Virus record (IMG/VR): IMGVR_UViG_3300027687_000081 | Coordinates: 1-22,773 of that record | Strand: one strand, 5' to 3' | Length of the DNA: 22,773 bases | From: a virus | In this document: positions 9,959-21,155 of the stretch, piece by piece | How the letters are laid out: every line of letters begins with the position of its first letter | Numbering within the stretch: the first letter of the stretch is position 1 | The notes under the pieces: model-generated | Seen by the model: the letters and a program-made list of their open reading frames with translations, nothing else | Told to the model about the DNA's origin: nothing | The model's database searches: none | Position numbers and translations under genes: made by a program

Positions 9959-10663
9959 ATGTTATCATTCGAAAATTTTATTAAGAAGCATGTTGAAGAG
10001 TTAGAAGAGGGTGTCAATGACCCGGCTATATTCAAAGCAGTCTTTCTTGCTGGTGGACCCGGTTCTGGTAAATCGTTCATTGTAGGTAAGACTGGTCTTC
10101 CAGCATTGGGATTTAAAGTCGTAAACTCTGATGATGCTTTTGAGAAGGGTATGGCTAAAGCCGGACTGGAGACTAATCCAGAGAACATATTCTCTGTACA
10201 GGGCCAAGAACTACGTGGTCGAGCAAAAGACTTTACTGCGCTTAAGCAGTCTATCTATCTTAAGGGTCGTCTTGGTTTAGTCATTGACGGCACAGGCAAG
10301 AACATCGATAAGCTAAAGAGACAGGCCACTATGCTGAAAGAGCTTGGTTATGATGTCTCTATGATGTTTGTCAATACTGATCTAGACACTGCACAAGATC
10401 GTAATCAGGCTCGATCTAGAACTTTACCGAGGGATGAGGTAGAGACTTATTGGAAAACTATTCAGTCGAATATTGGCTCTCTACAGACGTTTTTCGGTAA
10501 AGATAAATTTGTTGTTGTAGATAATTCTGAGGGCAAAGATTACAAAGCCGAAACTGTTCGCGCATATAGGGAAATTATTAAATTCTCCAAAAAGCCACCG
10601 ACTAGTATGAAAGCAAGAGAGTGGATTAAATTGCAGAAAGCTGGTTATACCAAAAGACGATAA
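9959..10663 (+). CDS. Zeta-toxin-like P-loop kinase with putative capsid-targeting leader
   Basis: A 234-residue protein. The P-loop G-G-P-G-S-G-K-S is at 32-39, followed by V-N-S-D-D-A-F near 55-61, D-G-T-G-K-N-I near 108-115 and an arginine-containing lid region (A-R-S-R-T). This fits zeta-toxin/polynucleotide-kinase-like P-loop kinases. The N-terminus MLSFENFIKKHVEELEEG resembles the capsid-targeting leaders earlier in this window, with L-E-E as a possible prohead-protease site just before the kinase fold. It has a late promoter 47 bases upstream, consistent with a virion protein delivered at infection. The substrate (UDP-sugar, RNA/DNA end or protein) is unknown. No antitoxin gene is adjacent. 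Confidence 0.75.
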   Translation: MLSFENFIKKHVEELEEGVNDPAIFKAVFLAGGPGSGKSFIVGKTGLPALGFKVVNSDDAFEKGMAKAGLETNPENIFSVQGQELRGRAKDFTALKQSIYLKGRLGLVIDGTGKNIDKLKRQATMLKELGYDVSMMFVNTDLDTAQDRNQARSRTLPRDEVETYWKTIQSNIGSLQTFFGKDKFVVVDNSEGKDYKAETVRAYREIIKFSKKPPTSMKAREWIKLQKAGYTKRR

Positions 10664-10688: not shown

Positions 10689-11249
10689 TTGAATCTAAAA
10701 GAGTTAACTTGGGAAAACCATAAGTCTGCGGAAAGAAAAGAATTTGCTTCTATTCTACTCAGTGGTAGTATTGAACCGCAGATGTACTATACGTATCTCA
10801 ATAATCAGTTTCACAATTATCTAGCACTAGAGTCCAATTTGCCTCTTGAGAAACTTGGACTATCTGACATTGCAAGAACTGGATTGATAAGAGAAGATAT
10901 ACAGGAACTAGAAAGTATGTATGGATTTGAATCCGACTTTGGAGACATAACTGCGTCTACTGCTGAATATAAAGAACACGTTGAGATGCTTCGTAGAGAA
11001 CAGGACACAGACGGTCTCATAGCACACATGTATGTGCGACACTTTGGCGACATGTACGGTGGTTCCATTATCAGTAAGCGCACACCAGGTCAAGGCAAGA
11101 TGTATCAGTTTGACGATGTAGAAACACTAAAGACCGAGGTGCGGGCTATACTAAACGATAGCATGTCAACAGAAGCCAATCGGTGTTTCCAATTTGCTAT
11201 AAGACTATTCGAAGAGTTGTGTAGTGGAAAGGATACAGTTTCTAAATGA
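10689..11249 (+). CDS. hemO: Heme oxygenase (biliverdin-forming)
   Basis: A 186-residue soluble protein matching biliverdin-forming heme oxygenases. W-E-N-H-K-S-A-E at 8-15 gives the proximal heme ligand His11. Y-V-R-H-F-G-D-M-Y-G-G-S at 115-126 is the conserved distal-helix G-D-x-x-G-G motif. It would convert heme to biliverdin, CO and Fe2+ with ferredoxin as electron donor. It starts with TTG at 10689, supported by TGGAG upstream. The ATGA overlap with the bilin reductase gene makes a two-step heme to biliverdin to bilin pathway. Its length is somewhat shorter than cyanobacterial HO1 (about 240), as is usual for phage versions. Confidence 0.88.
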   Translation: MNLKELTWENHKSAERKEFASILLSGSIEPQMYYTYLNNQFHNYLALESNLPLEKLGLSDIARTGLIREDIQELESMYGFESDFGDITASTAEYKEHVEMLRREQDTDGLIAHMYVRHFGDMYGGSIISKRTPGQGKMYQFDDVETLKTEVRAILNDSMSTEANRCFQFAIRLFEELCSGKDTVSK

Positions 11250-11929
11250 GCTTAGTGTGGGACAGCCTTATCGATCTACAGAATATCTTCATAGATCAAT
11301 TCGCTTCTACTGGAACAGAGGTGCATGAAGCAGGAATGGAGAGATTCAATCAGCCTGGCTGGATCAATAGAGTCTGGTCGTGTGATGGATATCGAAGGGC
11401 ACACGTTGATGTGGTTGATATGCGCGAGTCTAAAAAGGTCTGGATGATGCATGTCTGTGTATTTCCACATCTCAACAGCGATGCTCCGATCTACGGATTC
11501 GATGTAGTGGCAGGCCCTAATAAGATGACTGGAGCATTCCACGACTTCTCTGCTACGACAAATCTAGAGCATGATATGATAGATCACTTTGGTAAGATTG
11601 CGTCCAGGCTGCACTGGAAGCGAGAGAGAGAGCTTCCTCCTTGGGCTAAAGCAATCTTCACTGATCATATGATAGCTGCTGGTATGATCAAGGAACCGAA
11701 CGAAATAGCGCAGATATGCAGTACTGCTGAAGAGACTCTAGGATACTATCTAGAGAATGTAGCCGACTACGCCGGATACTCTACAGTTGAAATGGGTGCA
11801 GCCGCACAGAATTATTATGCGTATAACCAGAAACAGAACCCCCATACTCCTAATGTTATGAAGAGTTTGGGTCTAAATGAAGATGACGTTGACTTGTTTG
11901 TTCAGCAGTCGTTGTTTCCAGAGATATAA
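11246..11929 (+). CDS. pcyX: Ferredoxin-dependent bilin reductase, PcyX-like
   Basis: A 227-residue FDBR-family protein. The core V-W-M-M-H-V-C-V-F-P at 65-74, followed by P-I-Y-G-F-D-V-V-A-G at 81-90, matches the bilin-binding site. His69 and Asp86 are 17 residues apart, exactly the spacing of catalytic His88/Asp105 in PcyA. L-P-P-W-A-K-A-I-F also fits the family. Having the His-Asp pair yet sitting beside a phage heme oxygenase, it best fits PcyX, the marine-viral reductase reported to take biliverdin to phycoerythrobilin; PcyA or PebS activity is not excluded. It needs host ferredoxin. The ATGA overlap with hemO shows coupling. A late promoter overlaps its stop. Confidence 0.85.
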   Translation: MSLVWDSLIDLQNIFIDQFASTGTEVHEAGMERFNQPGWINRVWSCDGYRRAHVDVVDMRESKKVWMMHVCVFPHLNSDAPIYGFDVVAGPNKMTGAFHDFSATTNLEHDMIDHFGKIASRLHWKRERELPPWAKAIFTDHMIAAGMIKEPNEIAQICSTAEETLGYYLENVADYAGYSTVEMGAAAQNYYAYNQKQNPHTPNVMKSLGLNEDDVDLFVQQSLFPEI

Positions 11930-11961: not shown

Positions 11962-13275
11962 ATGGGATGGCTTTTAATACCAAACAATCCGAATTGGCAA
12001 TATGATAATGCACCACCAGACCCAGGTGCGACTATTACTTCCGGCAGTTTTGCGATAGGTACTAGATATAAGATTACCAATCTAAGCGGCACATCTGCTG
12101 CCCAGTGGCACACTGCTGCTGGAACTCAAAGTGGAGATTCTTCAGCAGCCCTATATCACGCTGATTATGTAGTGGGTGATACCTTTAAAGCTGCCGCAGC
12201 AGGAGCAGGAACTGGAAAAGTTGTATTGGCAGACTCTTCATCAAGAGAATTATGGTTAAAGCAAACTGCGGGAGTTCGGATACATACAGATCCTGCCGGA
12301 AAAGAACACAAAGTTTACACGAAAGTTCGTATGGTTGGAAGCACTGTTGATACTATGGGCGAGATAAGTAAAACATATTGGGATGCTCAGGGTACTGAAG
12401 ATGATGATGTCTCATTCAGGACTTTATGGGAAACTACAGCAGACGGAGAAAGTATTACATGGCCATGTAATCAGGGTAGTGGATACACACCCACATTCGA
12501 TGCCGTTATTGATTGGGGTGACGGTACTACCAACACAACGATAACCGCATACAATGATTCTGGTCTTACACACACTTATGCTACTGCTGGTGAGTATACT
12601 GTTCGTATTACAGGAACTTTCCCGACAGTGATATTTGGTGGCACTGCCCCAAGCAAAGATAAAATCAAGAAGGTTCTACAGTTGGGTAATGTAGGATGGA
12701 AAAATCTGAAAAGAGGATTCAAGGGTTGTTCTAACCTAACAGACTTCGTCGTGGGTTCAACTACGATGAATTTGAATGGAGATGGATCGAATATAGGAGA
12801 ATGTTTGCGTGACTGCCCTTCATTGTCCAATGTCGACTTTTCTGGTGGCAACTTTGACACAAGTGGTGTCACCAATATGAACGCATTCTTGAGGTGTAGT
12901 GCCAGCGTTCCAGTCGGTGACACTGCCTTGACCACTATAGATGTTTCATATCTAAACACATCCAATGTAACGACTATGAATGGGTTTTTCAGGGATAATG
13001 ACAATATTGAGAACCTTACTGGAATAGAGACATGGGATATATCATCTCTTAATAATTCCAATTCGCTCGACAATCGCTTTTTAGACCCAAACTCAAAAAT
13101 GCCGACCGCAACATACGATGCCTTGTTAATTGCATGGGCAGCACAAGCACCGTTTGATGTAGACAACGTCAGGTTTGGTATCAGTACATATACTGGCGGT
13201 GGTGCAGCGGAAGCAGCGCGACAGACGCTGATAGACACTTATGGTTGGATTATTTCCGATGGCGGTGCAGCGTGA
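11962..13275 (+). CDS. Virion/tail fibre-like protein with PKD and BspA-type repeats
   Basis: A 437-residue protein. The start MGWLLIPNNPNW is typical of marine phage structural proteins. Residues about 25-100 are Gly/Ala/Ser/Thr-rich. Residues about 165-215 form a PKD-like beta domain (V-I-D-W-G-D-G-T-T then H-T-Y-A-T-A-G-E-Y-T-V). Residues about 250-370 carry leucine-rich BspA/DUF285-type turns (F-K-G-C-S-N-L-T, S-G-V-T-N-M-N-A-F, T-S-N-V-T-T-M-N). The end T-Y-G-W-I-I-S-D-G-G is common in BspA-like surface proteins. This suggests an exposed adhesin or fibre that contacts host glycans or protein. AAGGAA serves as ribosome binding site. A late promoter lies 30 bases upstream, consistent with a structural role. 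Confidence 0.7.
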   Translation: MGWLLIPNNPNWQYDNAPPDPGATITSGSFAIGTRYKITNLSGTSAAQWHTAAGTQSGDSSAALYHADYVVGDTFKAAAAGAGTGKVVLADSSSRELWLKQTAGVRIHTDPAGKEHKVYTKVRMVGSTVDTMGEISKTYWDAQGTEDDDVSFRTLWETTADGESITWPCNQGSGYTPTFDAVIDWGDGTTNTTITAYNDSGLTHTYATAGEYTVRITGTFPTVIFGGTAPSKDKIKKVLQLGNVGWKNLKRGFKGCSNLTDFVVGSTTMNLNGDGSNIGECLRDCPSLSNVDFSGGNFDTSGVTNMNAFLRCSASVPVGDTALTTIDVSYLNTSNVTTMNGFFRDNDNIENLTGIETWDISSLNNSNSLDNRFLDPNSKMPTATYDALLIAWAAQAPFDVDNVRFGISTYTGGGAAEAARQTLIDTYGWIISDGGAA

Positions 13276-13445
13276 TAACAAAAAATTCAGGTTCGGGATA
13301 TTACATAATAGGGACTGGATTATTTTTTGAAAATGATAATATGGTCGTTTCCTATCCCGATGACACACCCGTTCAACAGTTCACCACTGAAGAACTCTTG
13401 TTGATTGCACACAGAGAACAGTTTCCAGAAGAGTATACTGATTAA
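13272..13445 (+). CDS. Small protein following the fibre-like gene
   Basis: A 57-residue acidic protein. I chose the GTG at 13272 because it overlaps the upstream stop as GTGA; an upstream TTG at 13245 would lie deep inside the previous gene. The sequence has a beta-like first half (G-Y-Y-I-I-G-T-G-L-F-F) and a helical acidic second half (T-E-E-L-L-L-I-A-H-R-E). Coupling to the fibre-like gene suggests a chaperone or small virion partner; this is inference from position only. It ends just before the tmRNA. Confidence 0.55.
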   Translation: MITKNSGSGYYIIGTGLFFENDNMVVSYPDDTPVQQFTTEELLLIAHREQFPEEYTD

Positions 13446-13469
13446 AGGAAGATAAAATTTTTACAATAC

Positions 13470-13725
13470 AAAGAATTCGTTGACGTAACATTGAGGCTAG
13501 GCAAACACTGGGGTTCGAACCCCCACGCTTCCACCTATAATCATTCTAAGAGTGTTTATAGGGGGAGCGATTTGGATTCGACTTGCTGGTAATAGGTGTT
13601 ATTAGAATAGGTGATGTAAGCTACCTTAAACGCGAACAAACAATATAAATGCAAACGATGCGTTTTACGGTGATACAGCTATAGCAGCTTAAGACACCTG
13701 AGGTTTCGGTCCTCCCTTATTATCC
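13470..13725 (+). ncRNA. ssrA: Circularly permuted (two-piece) tmRNA
   Basis: Acceptor piece first. The T-arm is TGGGG at 13509-13513, loop TTCGAAC at 13514-13520 and CCCCA at 13521-13525, followed by the 3' acceptor strand CGCTTCC at 13526-13532 and A-C-C, then T. After a spacer of about 27 bases comes the coding piece. Its 5' acceptor strand GGGAGCG at 13563-13569 pairs fully with CGCTTCC, and the D-region TTTGGATTCGAC follows. Resume codon GCA is at 13651. GTGTTA in the coding piece can pair with TAACAT in the acceptor piece as part of helix P2. Permuted tmRNAs are matured by excision of the spacer. CCA is not fully encoded. The outer ends given here are approximate. Confidence 0.9.
13651..13692 (+). 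other. tmRNA proteolysis-tag reading frame
   Basis: GCA AAC GAT opens a frame encoding ANDAFYGDTAIAA, ending at TAA 13690-13692. Start A-N-D and end A-A match the general tmRNA tag design (E. coli tag ANDENYALAA; C-terminal A-A recognised by ClpXP). The middle FYGDTAI part is not one I recognise from host tags. Confidence 0.85.
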
Positions 13726-13762
13726 AATTGGGCCAACTTTAAAATTAAAAGGTGATTAAATT

Positions 13763-14020
13763 ATGACTAGTGTTATTATACCATCAACTGATGCAGACAA
13801 AAAACGAATTAAAGATTGTATGGACGAAATCAGTAATTCGTATCTCAGGCAGGAAGCCGAACGAGAATTCATCAAGGAAGCTATTGTGTCTCTAGAGGAC
13901 GATGTTGGGATACCTAAAAAATATCTAGCCAAAATGGCAAAAATCTATCATAAGCAGAATATGTCTGAGCTAGTATCAGAGATTGAAGAGATAGAGGCTT
14001 TACTTGAAAGCGTGAAATAG
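13763..14020 (+). CDS. dsbA: DsbA-like double-stranded DNA-binding protein
   Basis: An 85-residue mostly helical protein. The second half (I-K-E-A-I-V-S-L-E-D-D-V-G-I-P-K-K-Y, then A-K-I-Y-H-K-Q-N, then acidic E-I-E-E-I-E-A-L-L) aligns with T4 DsbA (D-E-L-G-V, L-Y-H-K-D-N, E-E-V-V-E-L-Y). T4 DsbA is 89 residues, binds dsDNA and stimulates late promoters. The gene stands in the T4 order dsbA-33-59-32. The ribosome binding site AAAGGTG lies upstream of ATG 13763. It lies directly after the tmRNA and may be read from the same transcript. Confidence 0.8.
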   Translation: MTSVIIPSTDADKKRIKDCMDEISNSYLRQEAEREFIKEAIVSLEDDVGIPKKYLAKMAKIYHKQNMSELVSEIEEIEALLESVK

Positions 14021-14023
14021 TAC

Positions 14024-14053
14024 TTGACATTTGTATAGTTACTATGCTATAAT
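14024..14053 (+). promoter_or_regulatory. sigma70 promoter with extended -10
   Basis: TTGACA at 14024-14029 and TGC-TATAAT with the -10 at 14048-14053, 18-base spacer. It lies directly after dsbA and drives the small gene at 14086 and probably genes 33 and 59. Confidence 0.8.
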
Positions 14054-14085
14054 ATACATCAAGAAATCAATATAGGAAATTGCCT

Positions 14086-14295
14086 ATGAAACATATCACA
14101 GTGTTCTACAAAGAAGATTCCGACTCCACAGACGTTAGAGCCGAAGTTGTTGTGGACTCGTCCGGCAAGTATGGTATCGAGTTCTATACGGGTTCTGGTA
14201 ATAATCCTAAGACAGAGTGGTACGAAAAAACTCTAAATGAAGTTAAAGATATTGCCGAAGACTGGGCTTGTAACGTTAAACTGTTGCGTGGTTAA
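14086..14295 (+). CDS. Hypothetical small protein between dsbA and 33
   Basis: A 69-residue acidic protein starting MKHITVFYKE. I chose ATG 14086 because AGGAA lies eight bases upstream; the TTG six bases earlier is too close to it. It has a beta-rich first half (H-I-T-V-F-Y, V-V-V-D-S-S-G-K-Y-G-I-E-F-Y) and a C-terminal helix (L-N-E-V-K-D-I-A-E-D-W). No family recognised. In T4 no gene lies between dsbA and 33, so this is an insertion relative to the T4 order. Gene 33 follows in the same frame directly after its stop. Confidence 0.6.
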   Translation: MKHITVFYKEDSDSTDVRAEVVVDSSGKYGIEFYTGSGNNPKTEWYEKTLNEVKDIAEDWACNVKLLRG

Positions 14296-14322
14296 GCTAT
14301 TCAATCATACGAGGGGAATCAA

Positions 14323-14574
14323 ATTACGAAATCTAAAGACGTTGGCATAGAATTGACTCAGTTAACTTCCGAGTCTATCATGAGAGAAATAAACTCGAAT
14401 ATCTTAAGAGGTGTTCCATACATCGATGCTGTTATTGCATATGCAGAATCGTATGGACTAGAGGTAGAATCAGTGGGGGAAATCATTCGAAAATCTCCTG
14501 TGCTAAAAGCTAAAATCTATCGAGAAGCCGAAGACTTGAATATGGTCGAAAAACTAACAAGGTTGCCTGTATGA
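14323..14574 (+). CDS. 33: Late promoter transcription coactivator gp33
   Basis: Residues from the ATT at 14323 give 83 amino acids. The conserved gp33 part is I-M-R-E-I-N-S-N-I-L-R-G-V-P-Y-I-D-A-V followed by a helical block and the C-terminal A-E-D-L-N-M-V-E-K-L-T-R-L-P-V. gp33 links the sliding clamp gp45 to RNA polymerase at late promoters, consistent with the TATAAATA promoters here. No ATG or GTG precedes the conserved region. GAGGGG at 14311-14316 is six bases from ATT 14323; TTG at 14353 has no ribosome binding site. The stop overlaps gene 59 by ATGA. It is shorter than T4 gp33 (112). Confidence 0.75.
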   Translation: MTKSKDVGIELTQLTSESIMREINSNILRGVPYIDAVIAYAESYGLEVESVGEIIRKSPVLKAKIYREAEDLNMVEKLTRLPV

Positions 14575-15167
14575 CAGAAACCTCTGTCTACACGACAAGA
14601 GATGCTTTTGACATATACAGCTACTATATGGCGTTGAGGAAGCACTTCACATCTAGTTATGATTTTGTTAAGTACGGCGGTAAGATGAGATTGAGTGTCG
14701 ATTCTTTCGAGAGAAGGCGAGATAAATATTTCTTCTATAAACTCTCTAAGCGAAAGGAAGCTAAAGAATTCGTGTTAGCAAATCTTATCGTCAAGCCTGA
14801 TATATGGATTGGTGATCTTGTAAGCGAAGAAGCGAATAAAGTTTATACTGAGTGGTCAAAGAGACAGCAGTCATTGTCTTACTTATTTAAGAATGATTTG
14901 GATGAATTGAATGATGATTTTAACTCAAACTTTATAGTTAACGATGGTCAGTATCCTCGCTTACTTCAGCTTTTCAATGCTAAGAATTTGTCTATAGAGA
15001 CACTGATAATACTGGGCGACATGACTGGCTGTTGGAACCACTGGGATAAGAAAATAAATGACACTATAATTTATCCCAGCATTTGTATGACTGCTAAGAA
15101 GTACGCGCCCTTCCTTTCATACGATAAGGGAAAAATGAAGTCTATCGTCACTGAGAAATTTATATGA
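14571..15167 (+). CDS. 59: Helicase loader gp59
   Basis: A 198-residue protein (T4 gp59 is 217). The N-terminal T-R-D-A-F-D-I-Y-S-Y-Y-M-A-L-R-K-H-F and Y-D-F-V-K-Y-G-G-K match the gp59 HMG-like domain, and the C-terminal Y-A-P-F-L-S-Y-D-K-G-K-M-K-S-I-V is the typical gp59 ending. gp59 binds forked DNA, contacts gp32 and loads the gp41 helicase for recombination-dependent replication. It overlaps gene 33 by four bases and precedes gene 32, exactly as in T4. The two Cys near the C-terminus (W-N and I-C-M regions) are not metal-site-like. Confidence 0.88.
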   Translation: MTETSVYTTRDAFDIYSYYMALRKHFTSSYDFVKYGGKMRLSVDSFERRRDKYFFYKLSKRKEAKEFVLANLIVKPDIWIGDLVSEEANKVYTEWSKRQQSLSYLFKNDLDELNDDFNSNFIVNDGQYPRLLQLFNAKNLSIETLIILGDMTGCWNHWDKKINDTIIYPSICMTAKKYAPFLSYDKGKMKSIVTEKFI

Positions 15168-15175
15168 TGTTTTAC

Positions 15176-15204
15176 TTGACAAACACGATAGAATGTAGTA
15201 TAAT
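15176..15204 (+). promoter_or_regulatory. sigma70 promoter of gene 32
   Basis: TTGACA at 15176-15181, TATAAT at 15199-15204, 17-base spacer: full consensus. The leader to gene 32 is about 105 bases and A-rich, and contains a strong ribosome binding site before a seven-codon ORF at 15225-15248. Confidence 0.85.
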
Positions 15205-15224
15205 TACTGTAACAAAAAAGGAGC

Positions 15225-15248
15225 ATGTCTATGATAACGACTTTATAA
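15225..15248 (+). promoter_or_regulatory. Seven-codon leader ORF upstream of gene 32
   Basis: ATG at 15225, spelling MSMITTL then TAA, is preceded by AAAAAGGAG, a better ribosome binding site than that of gene 32 itself. In T4 the gene 32 leader contains an RNA pseudoknot and an unstructured A-rich operator bound by gp32 for translational autoregulation. This minimal ORF could act in regulation here or be chance; its function is unproven. Confidence 0.35.
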
Positions 15249-15316
15249 TAATGGCAGTATAAAACGCAGTACAAAAACGTAACATAAATCGTATATTAAA
15301 ATTGAGGTATCACAAG

Positions 15317-16252
15317 ATGACAACATCTTTTGCAGCACTAAAAAAATCACGTAGTAGTTCTTTCGACAAACTGAATTCTGAACTACAGTCTATGGGCAAT
15401 AAAAGCAATAAAGGAGACGACCGTTACTGGAAGCCTGAAGTTGATAAAGCTGGAAATGGCTACGCAGTAATTCGTTTTTTGCCCGCACCAACCGGTGAAG
15501 ATGTACCTTTTGTTCGTGGATGGGATCACGGCTTTCAAGGACCAGGTGGATGGTATATCGAGAACTCTCTCACTACATTGGGTCAAGATGATCCAGTCTC
15601 TGAGCATAACTCTAAGTTGTGGAACTCTGGTCATGACGAAGATAAGGAAGTCGCTCGTAAGCAGAAGCGTAGATTATCCTACACTGCTAATATCTACATC
15701 GTACAAGATAGTTCAAACCCTTCGCGAGAAGGTCAAGTGTATCTATACAAGTTTGGCAAGAAAATCTTTGACAAACTAAACGATGCTATGAATCCACAGT
15801 TTGCCGATGAAGATCCGATCAACCCATTTGACTTTTGGGAAGGCGCTGACTTCAAACTTAAAATCCGTCAAGTCGAAGGCTATCGCAACTACGATAAGTC
15901 TGAATTTTCTTCTGTAGCTGCACTGTCAGATTCGTCTGGTACTGCACTGTCAGACGAGGCTATGGAAGAAGTTTGGAGTAAAGAGCATTCTCTTTCCGAG
16001 ATTGTTGATCCTAAAAACTTCAAAACCTATAATGAACTGAAGACTAAGTTGTACAAAGTTCTAGGTCTTGATGGCAGTAAACACGCACCCACGACTACTG
16101 CCGAGGATGACAATACGTGGATGGAAAGTACTAGCGCATCGAAAGAGCGAAAGGCTCCTGAAGTCGAAAGTACTCCATCCCCGTCTCTTGCAAGTGATGA
16201 CGGAGATGATGAATCTCTAGATTTCTTCAAGAGTCTAGCCGCTGATAGTTAA
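15317..16252 (+). CDS. 32: Single-stranded DNA-binding protein gp32
   Basis: A 311-residue protein from ATG 15317 (GAGG nine bases upstream; an in-frame TTG at 15302 is disfavoured). The N-terminal basic helix carries the LAST-like R-S-S-S-F motif. The core has A-G-N-G-Y-A-V-I-R-F-L-P, V-R-G-W-D-H-G-F, Y-K-F-G-K-K-I-F-D-K and G-Y-R-N-Y-D-K-S, all characteristic of gp32. The C-terminus is very acidic (D-D-G-D-D-E-S-L-D-F-F) for protein partners. The T4 zinc ligands (His64, Cys77, Cys87, Cys90) are not kept: the corresponding loop has no Cys. The gene follows gp59 in T4 order, with a strong promoter before and a strong terminator after. Confidence 0.93.
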   Translation: MTTSFAALKKSRSSSFDKLNSELQSMGNKSNKGDDRYWKPEVDKAGNGYAVIRFLPAPTGEDVPFVRGWDHGFQGPGGWYIENSLTTLGQDDPVSEHNSKLWNSGHDEDKEVARKQKRRLSYTANIYIVQDSSNPSREGQVYLYKFGKKIFDKLNDAMNPQFADEDPINPFDFWEGADFKLKIRQVEGYRNYDKSEFSSVAALSDSSGTALSDEAMEEVWSKEHSLSEIVDPKNFKTYNELKTKLYKVLGLDGSKHAPTTTAEDDNTWMESTSASKERKAPEVESTPSPSLASDDGDDESLDFFKSLAADS

Positions 16253-16272
16253 ACTATCTGGCTAGAGGGAAC

Positions 16273-16306
16273 GGGCAGCTCACGAGCGCGTGAGTTGCCC
16301 TTTTTT
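16273..16306 (+). terminator. Strong rho-independent terminator of gene 32
   Basis: GGGCAGCTCACG at 16273-16284 pairs with CGTGAGTTGCCC at 16289-16300 (twelve pairs, one G-U) around a four-base loop, followed by six T. It ends the rightward replication block just before the convergent tail genes. Confidence 0.92.
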
Positions 16307-16310
16307 ATGC

Positions 16311-18545
16311 TTAGAATCCACCGCCACCTTTACTTGCTAGATTGCCTGGCGGCTGTATGAAGATACTAGTGTTTTTCTGCTGATTTTGTCTATTAATTGT
16401 TGTCACTACAGGTCCAGGTGCTGACACTGCAATATTAGCTGCTTGTTGTTGCTGTTTAGCACTTTTTGCATCTTGATTGAGTATAGAGTGAGCTATTGCA
16501 GTTGCTGAAGAAGATGTCTCAGCGGGAGCGATTGATTGGGCTGTCGGAGAAACTCTAAGAACACCTACACTCCTATCCCTTTTAATTGCATCTGGCGTAG
16601 AGACAGTCTGTTCTTTTGCAATTGCATCTGGCGTAGAGGCTAGATTGTTCATATCTCCAAATATATCAACAGCCTTAGATACTTCATTCAATTGAATATT
16701 GGGATTATTTATTAGTCCTTTGCCAAAGTCTACATCAGCTTGTCCATCGAACTTTACCTTATTACCAACAGTCAGTCCTTCTAAGATAGGAATCGATTTG
16801 GATAGATTGACAGCCAATTTATGAAAGTTTACTTCTGAGTCTGAAATTTTAATAGTGGAAAATGTAGAGAGTGCTTTAGAAAACTTATCTAATGAGTCGG
16901 CAGCTTCATCTAGCTTATCGATTTCGTCTGTGATTGCGGTTATCTCAGAGATCATACTATTATCGCCGAAAGTGAATGCACTTTTTAATCCAGAGAAAAA
17001 GCCGTCGCTAGTGAATATACTTAATCCCTCACCGATGTTCTCCATTGTGGCAACAAAGTTACTGCCGTCATCTTTTACATTATCTGTTATTGACGTTAGT
17101 ATATCAACCTCATCTTTAATGCCTTGTGCGAAGTTTTCACTAGTGAATAGCTGGATGATTGACGCGAAGCCCTTACCCGCTCCAAATGCTACTAGACCAG
17201 CTCCTATACCAGCCATCACTTCCAAGAAACCGGCACTTCCTTCAGGTGTTTGCGCGCCAGGCAGATTAAGTATAGAGAGTAGGGTCCCGACTTCTTCCTT
17301 TATATCGTCTGCAAAATTGTCGCCTTTCGTAAAAAGTCCAACAGCCGAGCTTAATCCAGAAGCAGCAGCACCAGTCGCTTTACCTATACTAAATGCTACT
17401 AAACCTATTCCTATATTTGCGAGTACGTCTGCAAGCACTTTTGATTTCTGAGCGTTGACACCATCTATCTCAAGTATCTGTAGAAGAGATGTGACATTAG
17501 ATAGAATATCTGCTCCCCAATTATCACCACCAGCCGTAAGGGCACTAAGTCCGCCACCCACAGCAAAGGACGTTAGACCACCTCCAATTTTTTCCAGCAC
17601 TGCCGCAAGGGTATCCGCACCATCTTCACTCACGTCATTTATCTCAAGTATCTGTAGAAGGTTTCCTACGTTAGCTAGAATACTTTTGCTCCATTCAGTA
17701 CCATCGCTGAATTGGTTAACTGCTGCGCCTACTCCAAATGCCAGCAGACCTGCTCCTATAGCAGCCATTGCAGAAGTGAAGCCAGCAACATTTCCAATGG
17801 TAACACCCGGCAGGCTAGGTAGCTCTAGAAGAGATGTTACGTTATCTTTTATTGCGTCTACCCAGCTACCATCACCTTCAAATTTATTCAGCACTACTGC
17901 TGATCCTGCGCCAACACTAAACGCAAGTAGACCAGCACCCAAGCCAGTCATAGTGGCTATAAACGCGCCATTAGTCACAAAGAAGTCTCCAACTCCATCA
18001 AAATCGTCTGAGATTGCTAATAGCTCACCCACATTCTCTCGAATTTTTTTACCATCCAAATCGTTAAGTTGTTCTAGTAAAACTCCAGCGCCACCTAGAA
18101 GAGCGCCAGCGCCTGCCAGAACAGCACCCAGGCCTATACCGGCGCCAGCAGCCCCGAGTCCTACTCCACCACCCAGAAGACCACCCAGAAGACCACCTTT
18201 CTTTTTACCACCTGCTTCTACGGTGTCAGCGCCACCGCCATCACTCATGACACCTAGACCAGAACTGCCAACAGGCTCATCTTTCGCAGAAGACTGTCCG
18301 AGTTGTGCCAGTCGTGCGGCCTTTTCATCCGCATCTTCGTTATTCAATATAGTAGTATTAGCCGCGTCTACCAACCCTCTGAGAGACGTTGTTTGATCAA
18401 CCAAAGAAGATTGCATCGATTCTAATACAGGTGTTATTTTATCAAGAGTCTCTTTAGAGAGATTTACTGTCTTTGGTTTTCGAGTGAAGATGTTAGTGAG
18501 GGCATTCCCCTCCACATCTTTCTTTTTATTTTTCTTCTTTGCCAT
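16311..18545 (-). CDS. Large Gly-rich repeat protein, possible tape measure or virion protein
   Basis: A 744-residue protein. It has a strongly basic start (A-K-K-K-N-K-K-K), then a Gly/Ala/Leu-rich hydrophobic region at about 120-165 (G-L-L-G-G-L-L-G-G-G-V-G-L-G-A). About six repeats of 65-80 residues at about 190-540 follow, each with I-G-A-G-L-x-A-F-x-V-G and ending in D-I-x-x-x-V-x-x-L-L-x-I-L. A coiled-coil-like segment near 545-570 (D-E-I-D-K-L-D-E-A-A-D-S-L-D) and a Gln-rich tail complete it. It lies downstream of the 26-like baseplate gene and may be a tape-measure, hub or membrane-inserting virion protein; T4 gp29 shows no obvious sequence likeness. The late promoter is at 19015-19022. 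Confidence 0.55.
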   Translation of the reverse strand: MAKKKNKKKDVEGNALTNIFTRKPKTVNLSKETLDKITPVLESMQSSLVDQTTSLRGLVDAANTTILNNEDADEKAARLAQLGQSSAKDEPVGSSGLGVMSDGGGADTVEAGGKKKGGLLGGLLGGGVGLGAAGAGIGLGAVLAGAGALLGGAGVLLEQLNDLDGKKIRENVGELLAISDDFDGVGDFFVTNGAFIATMTGLGAGLLAFSVGAGSAVVLNKFEGDGSWVDAIKDNVTSLLELPSLPGVTIGNVAGFTSAMAAIGAGLLAFGVGAAVNQFSDGTEWSKSILANVGNLLQILEINDVSEDGADTLAAVLEKIGGGLTSFAVGGGLSALTAGGDNWGADILSNVTSLLQILEIDGVNAQKSKVLADVLANIGIGLVAFSIGKATGAAASGLSSAVGLFTKGDNFADDIKEEVGTLLSILNLPGAQTPEGSAGFLEVMAGIGAGLVAFGAGKGFASIIQLFTSENFAQGIKDEVDILTSITDNVKDDGSNFVATMENIGEGLSIFTSDGFFSGLKSAFTFGDNSMISEITAITDEIDKLDEAADSLDKFSKALSTFSTIKISDSEVNFHKLAVNLSKSIPILEGLTVGNKVKFDGQADVDFGKGLINNPNIQLNEVSKAVDIFGDMNNLASTPDAIAKEQTVSTPDAIKRDRSVGVLRVSPTAQSIAPAETSSSATAIAHSILNQDAKSAKQQQQAANIAVSAPGPVVTTINRQNQQKNTSIFIQPPGNLASKGGGGF

Positions 18546-18554
18546 GATCGTAAC

Positions 18555-18908
18555 CTATCTATCGTCTTTTTTATTGGAATATGCTTGAGTTGTGTAAAAT
18601 GCTGCAACTATAGCTGCAACTGATACGAAATATGTTGGAGCAATATCGCCTAACGTCTTAGATGCTTCATCTAATCCAAAACCAACTGTCACTATTACAG
18701 CAAATGGATATAACAGCATACCAAATAGTGCAAACCACGCCATTTGCCTCTGAGCGTCTTCTCGCTTATCCCTATTCTCAATCCTTTGACGTTCTTCATG
18801 TAGGGCTAAAGCGTTCTCTTGATCATCGACAGTTCCATCGATGTTTAAATCTGGATCAACGTCATGCACGTACTCGTCTTTATGAAACATGCGCCGGTTG
18901 GTTGACAT
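18555..18908 (-). CDS. Two-helix membrane protein with EF-hand-like loop
   Basis: A 117-residue protein. Residues 20-31 (D-L-N-I-D-G-T-V-D-D-Q-E) satisfy the EF-hand loop at positions 1, 3, 5, 6, 8, 9 and 12, suggesting calcium binding. Charged helix 32-50 (H-E-E-R-Q-R-I-E-N-R-D) leads to membrane segments at about 52-75 and 87-107, ending with a basic tail (S-N-K-K-D-D-R). The layout is compatible with a holin-like or virion-delivered membrane protein, but no holin family match is claimed. Ribosome binding site AAGGA precedes ATG. The late promoter TATAAATA at 19022-19015 lies about 107 bases upstream, inside the preceding ORF. Confidence 0.55.
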   Translation of the reverse strand: MSTNRRMFHKDEYVHDVDPDLNIDGTVDDQENALALHEERQRIENRDKREDAQRQMAWFALFGMLLYPFAVIVTVGFGLDEASKTLGDIAPTYFVSVAAIVAAFYTTQAYSNKKDDR

Positions 18909-18920
18909 TATACTATCCTT

Positions 18921-19088
18921 TTATTTCGACTTACTCTCTTCTATATAATGTAGCAACATACCAACATAGAGATCGCGCTCATATGGTATGAGATTTTCTA
19001 TCTCACTTATCTGGTATTTATAGTGTTGAGCCAGCGCGAAGACATTCTGATAATATAATGTCAAGCTATTATGACTCAACATTACGTA
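18921..19088 (-). CDS. -1-frame extension of the 26-like gene, or small reinitiated ORF
   Basis: A 55-codon frame opens at the 3' end of the 26-like gene in the -1 frame. It continues from the last T of a seven-T run (19088-19094 on this strand) without stop through L-Y-Y-Q-N-V-F-A-L-A-Q-H-Y, then E-N-L-I-P-Y-E-R-D-L-Y-V-G-M-L-L-H-Y-I, to TAA at 18921. Alternatively it starts at ATG 19082, overlapping the upstream stop as TAATG (53 residues). The pattern (aromatic/hydrophobic helix, then I-P-x-E-R-x-x-Y) resembles the C-terminal extension domains of tail assembly chaperones. It fills an otherwise empty 170-base gap. Confidence 0.65.
   Translation of the reverse strand, partial: YVMLSHNSLTLYYQNVFALAQHYKYQISEIENLIPYERDLYVGMLLHYIEESKSK
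19015..19022 (-). promoter_or_regulatory. T4-type late promoter (leftward)
   Basis: TATTTATA on the given strand, that is TATAAATA reading leftward, about 107 bases before the membrane protein gene at 18908. It lies inside the -1-frame extension ORF and probably drives the membrane protein and the 744-residue repeat protein. Confidence 0.65.
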
Positions 19089-19795
19089 AAAAAAGTGTCT
19101 ATACCCTCCATAGTAAACGTCTTTTCTTTCCCAGTATTGTCTTTATAGGGTATGGAGTACTTCATACGAGGTACTGTCTCAAAGAATTTTTGCATTGCTG
19201 TAACAGTTTCTTTAGTGAACTGGCCAACAAATTCATCAATCTCTTCTGAGGTAAAGTCCGAAAACTTTAGAACTTCATCTGTGGTCTTATTCACTAAACA
19301 GTCTATACATTGAACCATTGATCTAAATATTACTTCAGTCTCACTTTCGCCTTCATGTTCAGGGATTAATGCTTTAATTCCTTCTACTGTTGGATACCGC
19401 ATCATTAAATAGTAATCATCGTTTAAAACAACTTCCTTATTATGATCTTGATTGTGTGTGATCTCAATTTTATTGATGTCTATTGACAACGCAATCTCTT
19501 CTTCTGTGTCAGGATCTTTAACGCTGAAGGAAACTTTGTTATCAACAGACTTTGCGCGAATACATATAATAATATATTCTAGATCAAAGATTGGCATAGT
19601 ATCAACGTTAACGCCAATTACACAGTTGTTGATAATTTGCTTAATCGCTAAAATAATTTGATCAATATCCTTAGACTCTTGCGCTATTAGCAAAATCTTT
19701 TCTTCTTTAACTGTGAAGGGTCTATACTGTACCTTTTCTCCAGTAGATGGTACAATCAAATCAAATAAAGGCTGATCAATTTTTGGTAATCCCAT
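19082..19795 (-). CDS. 26: Baseplate protein of the T4 gp26 family
   Basis: A 237-residue protein (T4 gp26 is 208). The N-terminal P-L-F-D-L-I-V-P-S-T-G-E-K-V, F-T-V-K-E-E-K-I-L-L-I-A, then F-D-L-E-Y-I-I-I-C-I-R-A-K-S and F-S-V-K-D-P match the T4 baseplate hub-assembly family. The end C-I-D-x-L-V, F-T-K-E-T-V-T-A-M-Q-K-F-F-E-T-V-P completes the family pattern. The gene reads through a T TTT TTT heptamer at its last codons before TAA at 19082. A -1 slip there would add 55 residues. Ribosome binding site AGGAGAG precedes the ATG. It would act in assembly of the central hub. Confidence 0.75.
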   Translation of the reverse strand: MGLPKIDQPLFDLIVPSTGEKVQYRPFTVKEEKILLIAQESKDIDQIILAIKQIINNCVIGVNVDTMPIFDLEYIIICIRAKSVDNKVSFSVKDPDTEEEIALSIDINKIEITHNQDHNKEVVLNDDYYLMMRYPTVEGIKALIPEHEGESETEVIFRSMVQCIDCLVNKTTDEVLKFSDFTSEEIDEFVGQFTKETVTAMQKFFETVPRMKYSIPYKDNTGKEKTFTMEGIDTFFT

Positions 19796-19822
19796 GCTGT
19801 ACTCTCCTATAGTATAAAATAA

Positions 19823-20560
19823 TTAAAATGCGTTATATATTGTACTTACGTTAACTCCCTGATTTATTAAACTTTGTAGATCGGTTGGTCTGTCCAAGCC
19901 TCGAATTGCTTGAGCGAATGTATTTATTGCAGACAGATAACTCAGTAGTCCGTTAGTGCTTCCGTCTTGTCCGATTAATTGACCCCTAGATTCACCAGTT
20001 AGTTCTATTTTATCATAAGCAAACCCTACAGGAAGAGTCATAACTTCTCCACCATTTGCCCATGCTTGAGTTATGTTACCAACTTGTACAGGATATACTT
20101 CAGTCATTTTATATTGATACGTGATGACCTCTTGATGCCAAGAGTATACTGTTATGACAATTGTTGCTTTTCCATACTCCTCTTGATATCCTATTTCATA
20201 TGGCTGTAGTCCTCCACTGGAAGACAGATTGCCAGCTGCGGTAGAATAGTTTACGATTTTTTGAACCCAGGCGTGAAAAAACTTTAGCATTTCAAAGTTA
20301 CTGTCTACCATAAACACTGTGGGCAGAACGGGCAGTTCAAGCCCTATGGGTCGTCTAGTTGTAGCGCCAAATGCTTGCTTCTTATAATTCGTAGTCTGTA
20401 AATCTATTTCAGGTAGTGTGACGCTACGACAAAAAAAGTTCATGTCTTGCCCCATCTTATTATCAACGGGTGCGTTTTGAATTGATACCATAAAGAGGTT
20501 ATCTGCTGCTAAGCCGTGCTTACTTAAGACTCCTTTGAAATCTGCAATATTAAATCCCAT
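19823..20560 (-). CDS. 54: Baseplate tail-tube initiator, gp54-like
   Basis: A 245-residue protein (T4 gp54 is 320). D-N-L-F-M-V-S-I near 20-27, then C-R-S-V-T-L-P-E near 45 and L-P-V-L-P-T-V-F-M-V-D-S-N-F-E-M-L-K-F-F-H-A-W-V follow the tail-tube/initiator fold of gp54 and gp19 (beta barrel with a helix ending in W-V). The late part Y-K-M-T-E-V-Y-P-V-Q-V matches the second barrel strand. The gene starts four bases after the 2-like gene ends, with AGGATAAAG as its ribosome binding site, and is followed by the 26-like gene. A tail-tube protein proper (gp19) is a possible alternative, but the neighbours favour 54. Confidence 0.6.
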   Translation of the reverse strand: MGFNIADFKGVLSKHGLAADNLFMVSIQNAPVDNKMGQDMNFFCRSVTLPEIDLQTTNYKKQAFGATTRRPIGLELPVLPTVFMVDSNFEMLKFFHAWVQKIVNYSTAAGNLSSSGGLQPYEIGYQEEYGKATIVITVYSWHQEVITYQYKMTEVYPVQVGNITQAWANGGEVMTLPVGFAYDKIELTGESRGQLIGQDGSTNGLLSYLSAINTFAQAIRGLDRPTDLQSLINQGVNVSTIYNAF

Positions 20561-20564
20561 TACT

Positions 20565-21155
20565 TTATCCTATTTTTTTTCTTGAGTCAGTCCAGACTTG
20601 CTGCTTTGAAGCACCCTGGAATCTTTCGGTTGGTAGCCATATTGCTATGTCCCACTCTGTAGGATATATATACATAAACTGGCTCTTTACTTGAGTCGTA
20701 AGATATCTCTTAACACAGGGCTTGAAGGGTGCGAACTTAGCTGCACCGTCTAACATATTATAGTTCAATTTAAGTCTTGTAGTCTCATCATAGTTGTTAT
20801 TGTTCGAAGTTTCGTACAGCGCATCCATTAACTTAGCTCTAAGAACTAGCGGTAGATAGTGAAGATTTAGACCAAGAAATCCACCTGGCACCTTTTTAAA
20901 TGGAAAGACTAAAGGAAATCTATCGAAATAGGGTAGAGTTTTTTTATGTTTCGCATCATAGTAATACATGTATAGCTGACCCACCATGGGCTTAACTGTA
21001 AGTCTGGAAGCATCTTTTTTCAGAAGCCTAGCACTATTAACTTTTCCGTAGTCTCTAGCCGTCTGTCTATACCACTTTTTAGCAGCAGCAGATTGAGCGG
21101 GTACTTTACCACTATTAGCACCCTGTTTGAGAATTTTGTCGAAGACTGTGGCCAT
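20565..21155 (-). CDS. 2: DNA end protector gp2-like (tentative)
   Basis: A 196-residue basic protein. G-Q-L-Y-M-Y-Y-Y-D-A-K-H-K-K-T-L-P-Y-F-D at about 60-79, then F-P-L-V-F-P-F and G-F-L-G-L-N-L-H-Y-L-P at about 92-102, with the C-terminal W-T-D-S-R-K-K-I, are blocks I associate with the gp2 DNA-end protector of T4-like phages, here shorter than T4 gp2 (274). In T4, gp2 caps the packaged DNA ends and guards against host RecBCD; genes 2 and 4 are neighbours there, as here. The assignment is from memory of these motifs and is tentative. A leftward late promoter lies 25 bases upstream of the start. Confidence 0.5.
   Translation of the reverse strand: MATVFDKILKQGANSGKVPAQSAAAKKWYRQTARDYGKVNSARLLKKDASRLTVKPMVGQLYMYYYDAKHKKTLPYFDRFPLVFPFKKVPGGFLGLNLHYLPLVLRAKLMDALYETSNNNNYDETTRLKLNYNMLDGAAKFAPFKPCVKRYLTTQVKSQFMYIYPTEWDIAIWLPTERFQGASKQQVWTDSRKKIG

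Follow-up and report, generated by a model that had tools for sequence, protein, structure and literature searches.

Phage-encoded tmRNAs with permuted halves have been described before. ARAGORN suggested two-piece tmRNAs in 53 phages among 18,146 genomes, and permuted tmRNAs were reported in 17 of 47 contigs related to Methylophilales phage Melnitz, whose own ssrA was published in 2022 in a paper that treats phage tmRNA under the term 'two-piece tmRNA' (PMC9004378). Melnitz (MZ577096; OM43 host) is a T4-like phage, and its annotated permuted ssrA lies upstream of the genes for the late-transcription coactivator, the helicase loader and the ssDNA-binding protein. The permuted ssrA of Pelagibacter phage Mosig (MT647606; SAR11 host), likewise T4-like, is found by the late promoter accessory gene and upstream of the same three genes. 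The gene described here has the same kind of structure and the same placement.

A permuted tmRNA gene in a T4-like phage fragment

The window, by which we mean the whole stretch of DNA analysed (a record of 22,773 bases), is a fragment of a T4-like phage with the gene order tmRNA-gp33-gp59-gp32 (Table 1). Beyond the gp32-like gene, the opposite strand carries genes resembling gp26, gp2 and gp4 and one for a tail tube protein, followed by a tail-tube cap gene on the plus strand; upstream of the tmRNA are genes for a CobS-like ATPase, heme oxygenase and ferredoxin-dependent bilin reductase. The earlier note took the tmRNA to be phage-encoded, a reading that this neighbourhood and the presence of ssrA at the corresponding locus of two cultured phages support. 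Searches against phage records gave no match for the tmRNA region at the DNA level, and a tblastn search with the DsbA-like protein was likewise negative.

Table 1. Features of the tmRNA gene and its downstream neighbours (window coordinates)
Feature	Position	Strand	Evidence
Permuted tmRNA gene (ssrA), precursor; outer ends approximate	13470..13736	+	ARAGORN; RF04321; RF01850 (below cut-off); L109 match from 13470
Connecting helix joining both pieces, 5' side	13485..13492	+	Partner 13595-13602; minimum free energy fold
T-arm TGGGG-TTCGAAC-CCCCA, 5/5 pairs	13509..13525	+	RF04321 match; stem pairing
3' acceptor strand CGCTTCC, then ACC (13533-13535), then T in place of A	13526..13532	+	Stem pairing
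Intervening hairpin CCTATAATCATTC/GAGTGTTTATAGG	13534..13562	+	12/13 positions paired
5' acceptor strand GGGAGCG, third pair G-U	13563..13569	+	Stem pairing
Connecting helix, 3' side	13595..13602	+	Minimum free energy fold
Tag frame ANDAFYGDTAIAA + stop TAA	13651..13692	+	ARAGORN
Post-tag helix GGTCC/GGGCC, near 3' end of coding piece	13708..13734	+	Fold; matching helix in beta_tmRNA model
DsbA-like transcriptional regulator, directly downstream of tmRNA	13763..14020	+	PF11126, phrog_639
gp33-like late promoter coactivator	14353..14574	+	phrog_25387, phrog_254
gp59-like helicase loader	14571..15167	+	phrog_269
gp32-like single-strand DNA binding protein	15302..16252	+	phrog_224

Several other features of the window deserve mention. 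The heme oxygenase and bilin reductase genes form a pair at 10689-11929, and the best isolate match of the bilin reductase is in phage Mosig (47% identity). Between this pair and the tmRNA (11962-13275) lies an ORF of 437 aa that includes a DUF285-like repeat region; its counterpart in the related contig L109 is clearly different in sequence, so the product may be a surface or tail protein that evolves rapidly. Five consecutive ORFs at 348-2395 have near-identical starts of the form M-K/I/L-K-F/S-F-S-Q-F/Y-I-E-E, with a similar start in the ORF at 9959; this common start would be a shared leader, possibly a cleaved signal of the head-protein type.

ARAGORN calls a single tmRNA in the window, of the permuted type (13441-13783, plus strand), with the tag ANDAFYGDTAIAA. 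The Rfam model tmRNA_permuted (RF04321) matches 13474-13692 over all of its 213 positions (1-213) with 87.4 bits (E-value 7.6e-16) against a gathering cut-off of 47. The permuted tmRNA gene proposed in the earlier note is thus present and complete. The covariance-model check that the note suggested had a mixed outcome: the permuted order was upheld, while the match to beta_tmRNA (RF01850; 13429-13741, all 331 positions, top of its clan) reached 64 bits against a curated cut-off of 84. The 3'-terminal hairpin of the beta_tmRNA model is missing from the window tmRNA. A one-piece tmRNA or a chance structure can be rejected because ARAGORN and Rfam concur on the permuted order and ARAGORN made no tmRNA call when the whole window was dinucleotide-shuffled 200 times.

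As the note had read it, the piece with the 3' acceptor strand and T-arm precedes the piece with the 5' acceptor strand and tag, the T-arm lying upstream of GGGAGCG, and the two acceptor strands pair fully (7/7, the G3-U70 pair included). The locus at 13470-13725 was also correctly placed, with a 3' limit a little short, since the final predicted helix closes at 13734. An unconstrained fold recovers the acceptor stem, the intervening hairpin, the T stem and the connecting helix (energy z −1.9). Each of the 12 phage tmRNAs tested has a similar intervening hairpin (12/12); in the window tmRNA, maturation of the precursor should remove it. At its 3' end the gene encodes ACC-U instead of ACCA, which the note did not mention.

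Conservation, expression signals and tag

Among the 80 viral loci that a search by gp32 yielded, more than 30 have a permuted tmRNA called by ARAGORN upstream of gp32; its absence from the remaining loci says little because many of them are short. Twenty-nine phage tmRNAs comprise 17 distinct stem sets, and in these every acceptor and T-stem pair is standard (204/204); compensatory changes occur at T1-T3 and A4-A6, and G3-U70 never varies. The best of 2000 partner shuffles yielded 178 standard pairs against the real 204, a difference not to be read as a probability because the tmRNAs were located partly by good pairing and the rows are related. In one viral contig (L107, 1361-7264) a beta-type permuted tmRNA, which ARAGORN missed and Rfam found, lies in the midst of seven tRNA genes.

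Over 13470-20809 the window and contig L109 share 99.5% identity, which ends precisely where the tmRNA starts on its 5' side (13469/13470). Recombination or insertion may have occurred at this edge. At the break L109 has some 453 extra bases (968-1420) that contain an ORF of 111 aa; the 60 bases preceding the break recur upstream of the extra piece.

A sigma-70-like promoter (at least 10 of 12 matches) is situated just upstream of the tmRNA in 18 of the 30 loci examined and the T4 late motif TATAAATA in 16 of the 30. Eight loci, Melnitz included (L032, L033, L045, L048, L058, L076, L081 and L125), have the combined element TTGACA-17-TATAAATA, which, judging from its motifs, could serve as both a sigma-70 and a T4-type late promoter. 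Just upstream of the window tmRNA neither a sigma-70-like promoter nor the T4 late motif was recognised. A perfect 12/12 match to a TTGACA-18-TATAAT promoter is located at 14024-14053, in the gap that separates the DsbA-like gene from the small ORF following it.

The tag frame runs from the alanine resume codon GCA to the stop TAA, and the peptide has a small hydrophobic C-terminal end. The earlier note had called this tag unusual, a description that survives poorly. AND- is the usual start among the tags compared, AIAA ends occur in bacterial tags too (L145, L191, L198), and the core ANDAFYG is common to the window and the phage loci L070 (tag ANDAFYGEDRLAA) and L107 (which reads ANDAFYGEVRLAA); as a sequence, then, the tag appears not very unusual. 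It is identical in the near-identical contigs L083, L084 and L109. The start of the tag had no match in 84,980 species genomes, searched in one form (AAATGC prefix only). Tags have 13-15 residues in 25 of 29 phage rows and 10-13 in 33 of 34 bacterial rows, in sets that were not drawn to be comparable. It is conceivable, if doubtful, that the longer phage-specific tags of T4-like aquatic phages give stalled proteins another fate, so that the phage would replace rather than supplement host trans-translation.

Likely role and its alternatives

We consider it probable that 13470-13736 is an intact phage-borne permuted ssrA encoding a two-piece RNA that would act with host SmpB in ribosome rescue. 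In favour of this reading are the full-length model match, the conserved stem pairs, the open tag frame and the conserved locus; against it are a score lower than those of the cellular permuted tmRNAs, the shortfall with beta_tmRNA and the failure to recognise a promoter just upstream, where most relatives have one. The steps from processing to benefit, as we infer them, would be as follows. The precursor would be transcribed and the hairpin between the acceptor strands excised, leaving an acceptor piece and a coding piece, which base pairing in the connecting helix and acceptor stem would keep together. The acceptor end would be completed by the host CCA-adding enzyme. G3-U70 is the alanine identity pair, through which host AlaRS would charge the molecule with alanine. 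Host SmpB would then bring the charged RNA to ribosomes that have stalled on broken mRNA. Once ANDAFYGDTAIAA had been appended the ribosome would stop, and the tagged protein would pass to host proteases. For the phage the benefit is probably that ribosomes keep cycling in infection. Trans-translation, with ribosome rescue during infection, is the most likely role by analogy with the tmRNA family. A search for SmpB in the window, in Melnitz and Mosig and in seven further viral records, several of them fragments, found none; therefore the window tmRNA presumably uses host SmpB.

The gene might instead serve mainly for early breakdown of host proteins and recycling of their amino acids. Lytic T4-like phages are expected to shut off host gene expression, leaving truncated messages, which would favour such a role. 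We regard it as unlikely to be the main role, even though it was proposed for Melnitz, for whose tmRNA the authors envisaged early expression only (PMC9004378). No sequence feature targets host proteins, recycling is indistinguishable here from general ribosome rescue, and the T4 late motif at the promoter of several relatives argues against an early-only role in those relatives.

Slightly less likely still is a decaying or captured copy, non-functional and heading to a pseudogene. The window tmRNA has the lowest score of the set and a long branch (0.56 in a tree of 39 rows), an encoded ACC-U end and no clear promoter, all of which a decaying gene might show. Against decay, the acceptor and T-stem pairs are all intact, the tag frame is open and the gene is kept in near-identical contigs; the tmRNA of phage L048 and those of the bacterial L133, L145, L146 and L188 likewise lack the A after ACC. 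Very improbable is a decoy role, in which the RNA would sequester SmpB and so block trans-translation by the host: strong inhibition of tmRNA is reported for a molecule resembling the TLD-only tmRNA of mycobacteriophage DS6A (PMC4131195), but DS6A has little beyond the tRNA-like domain, while the tag frame is kept in the window and all relatives listed.

The region upstream of gp33-gp59-gp32 holds a two-piece tmRNA in many T4-like aquatic phages, and this recurrence suggests that ribosome rescue matters in their infections. The phage tmRNAs at this locus make a defined set for asking if phage tags differ functionally from host tags.

Comparison with phage and bacterial tmRNAs

Phage loci that pass a clade model mostly match the alpha model, while L070, L066, L107 and L048 match the beta model. 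In the 39-row tree the window groups with the tmRNAs of betaproteobacteria and the beta-type ones of phages (support 90/89, below the starred level). By score and tree the window tmRNA is closest to the betaproteobacterial type, as far as its sequence tells, though it stays under the beta_tmRNA cut-off. Its RF04321 score is also lower than that of every cellular permuted tmRNA in the Pseudomonadota sample (at least 96.7 bits), where 136 of 398 genomes have a permuted tmRNA above the cut-off. Such genes occur in five of the 150 sampled genomes of the Cupriavidus order; the many weak sub-cut-off matches given by the general model in the Burkholderiales search were left out of the counts. In Cupriavidus pinatubonensis HN-2, two chromosomes and a plasmid together carry five copies that pass the cut-off (L111, L116, L118, L120, L133).

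The earlier note had reasoned that a phage copy points to a host with permuted tmRNAs. The lean to the beta type, in score and at the 90/89 fork, is weakly in favour of this suggestion; the low count in the Cupriavidus order speaks against it, as does the observation that phage and host tmRNA types can differ, the type of Melnitz not matching that of its own host (PMC9004378). Sequence similarity names no host: when the window tmRNA was compared by BLAST with the 398 Pseudomonadota genomes, the sole match was one of 24 bases at the tmRNA edge.

The tmRNAs of the two cultured phages differ from that of the window in type and tag: the Melnitz ssrA matches the alpha model (106.7 bits) and has the tag ANDNYVPVDYALAA, and that of Mosig, also of the alpha model, has GEDNFALAA. 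Melnitz has a glutamine riboswitch just downstream of ssrA, whereas the glutamine (glnA) riboswitch model RF01739 had no match in the window at 13201-14100 even at an E-value of 10. Mosig shares with the window the heme oxygenase and bilin reductase genes, which in Mosig are far from ssrA. The beta-type phage tmRNAs of IMG/VR contigs L070, L066 and L107 are beta-like as is the window tmRNA, with ANDAFYG in the tags of the first and the last, and pass the beta_tmRNA cut-off that the window fails (149.3, 144.3 and 85.3 bits). The permuted tmRNAs of Cupriavidus and other Burkholderiales have the gene order, acceptor logic and tree clade of the window; their tags are ANDExFALAA or AIAA, and most full copies score ∼129-166 bits versus 87.4. 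Since Melnitz and Mosig have ssrA at the matching place and further cases have been counted in the Melnitz paper, the phage permuted tmRNA and its locus are already known, and the window gene is a new divergent member that adds a beta-like example to the phage two-piece tmRNAs.
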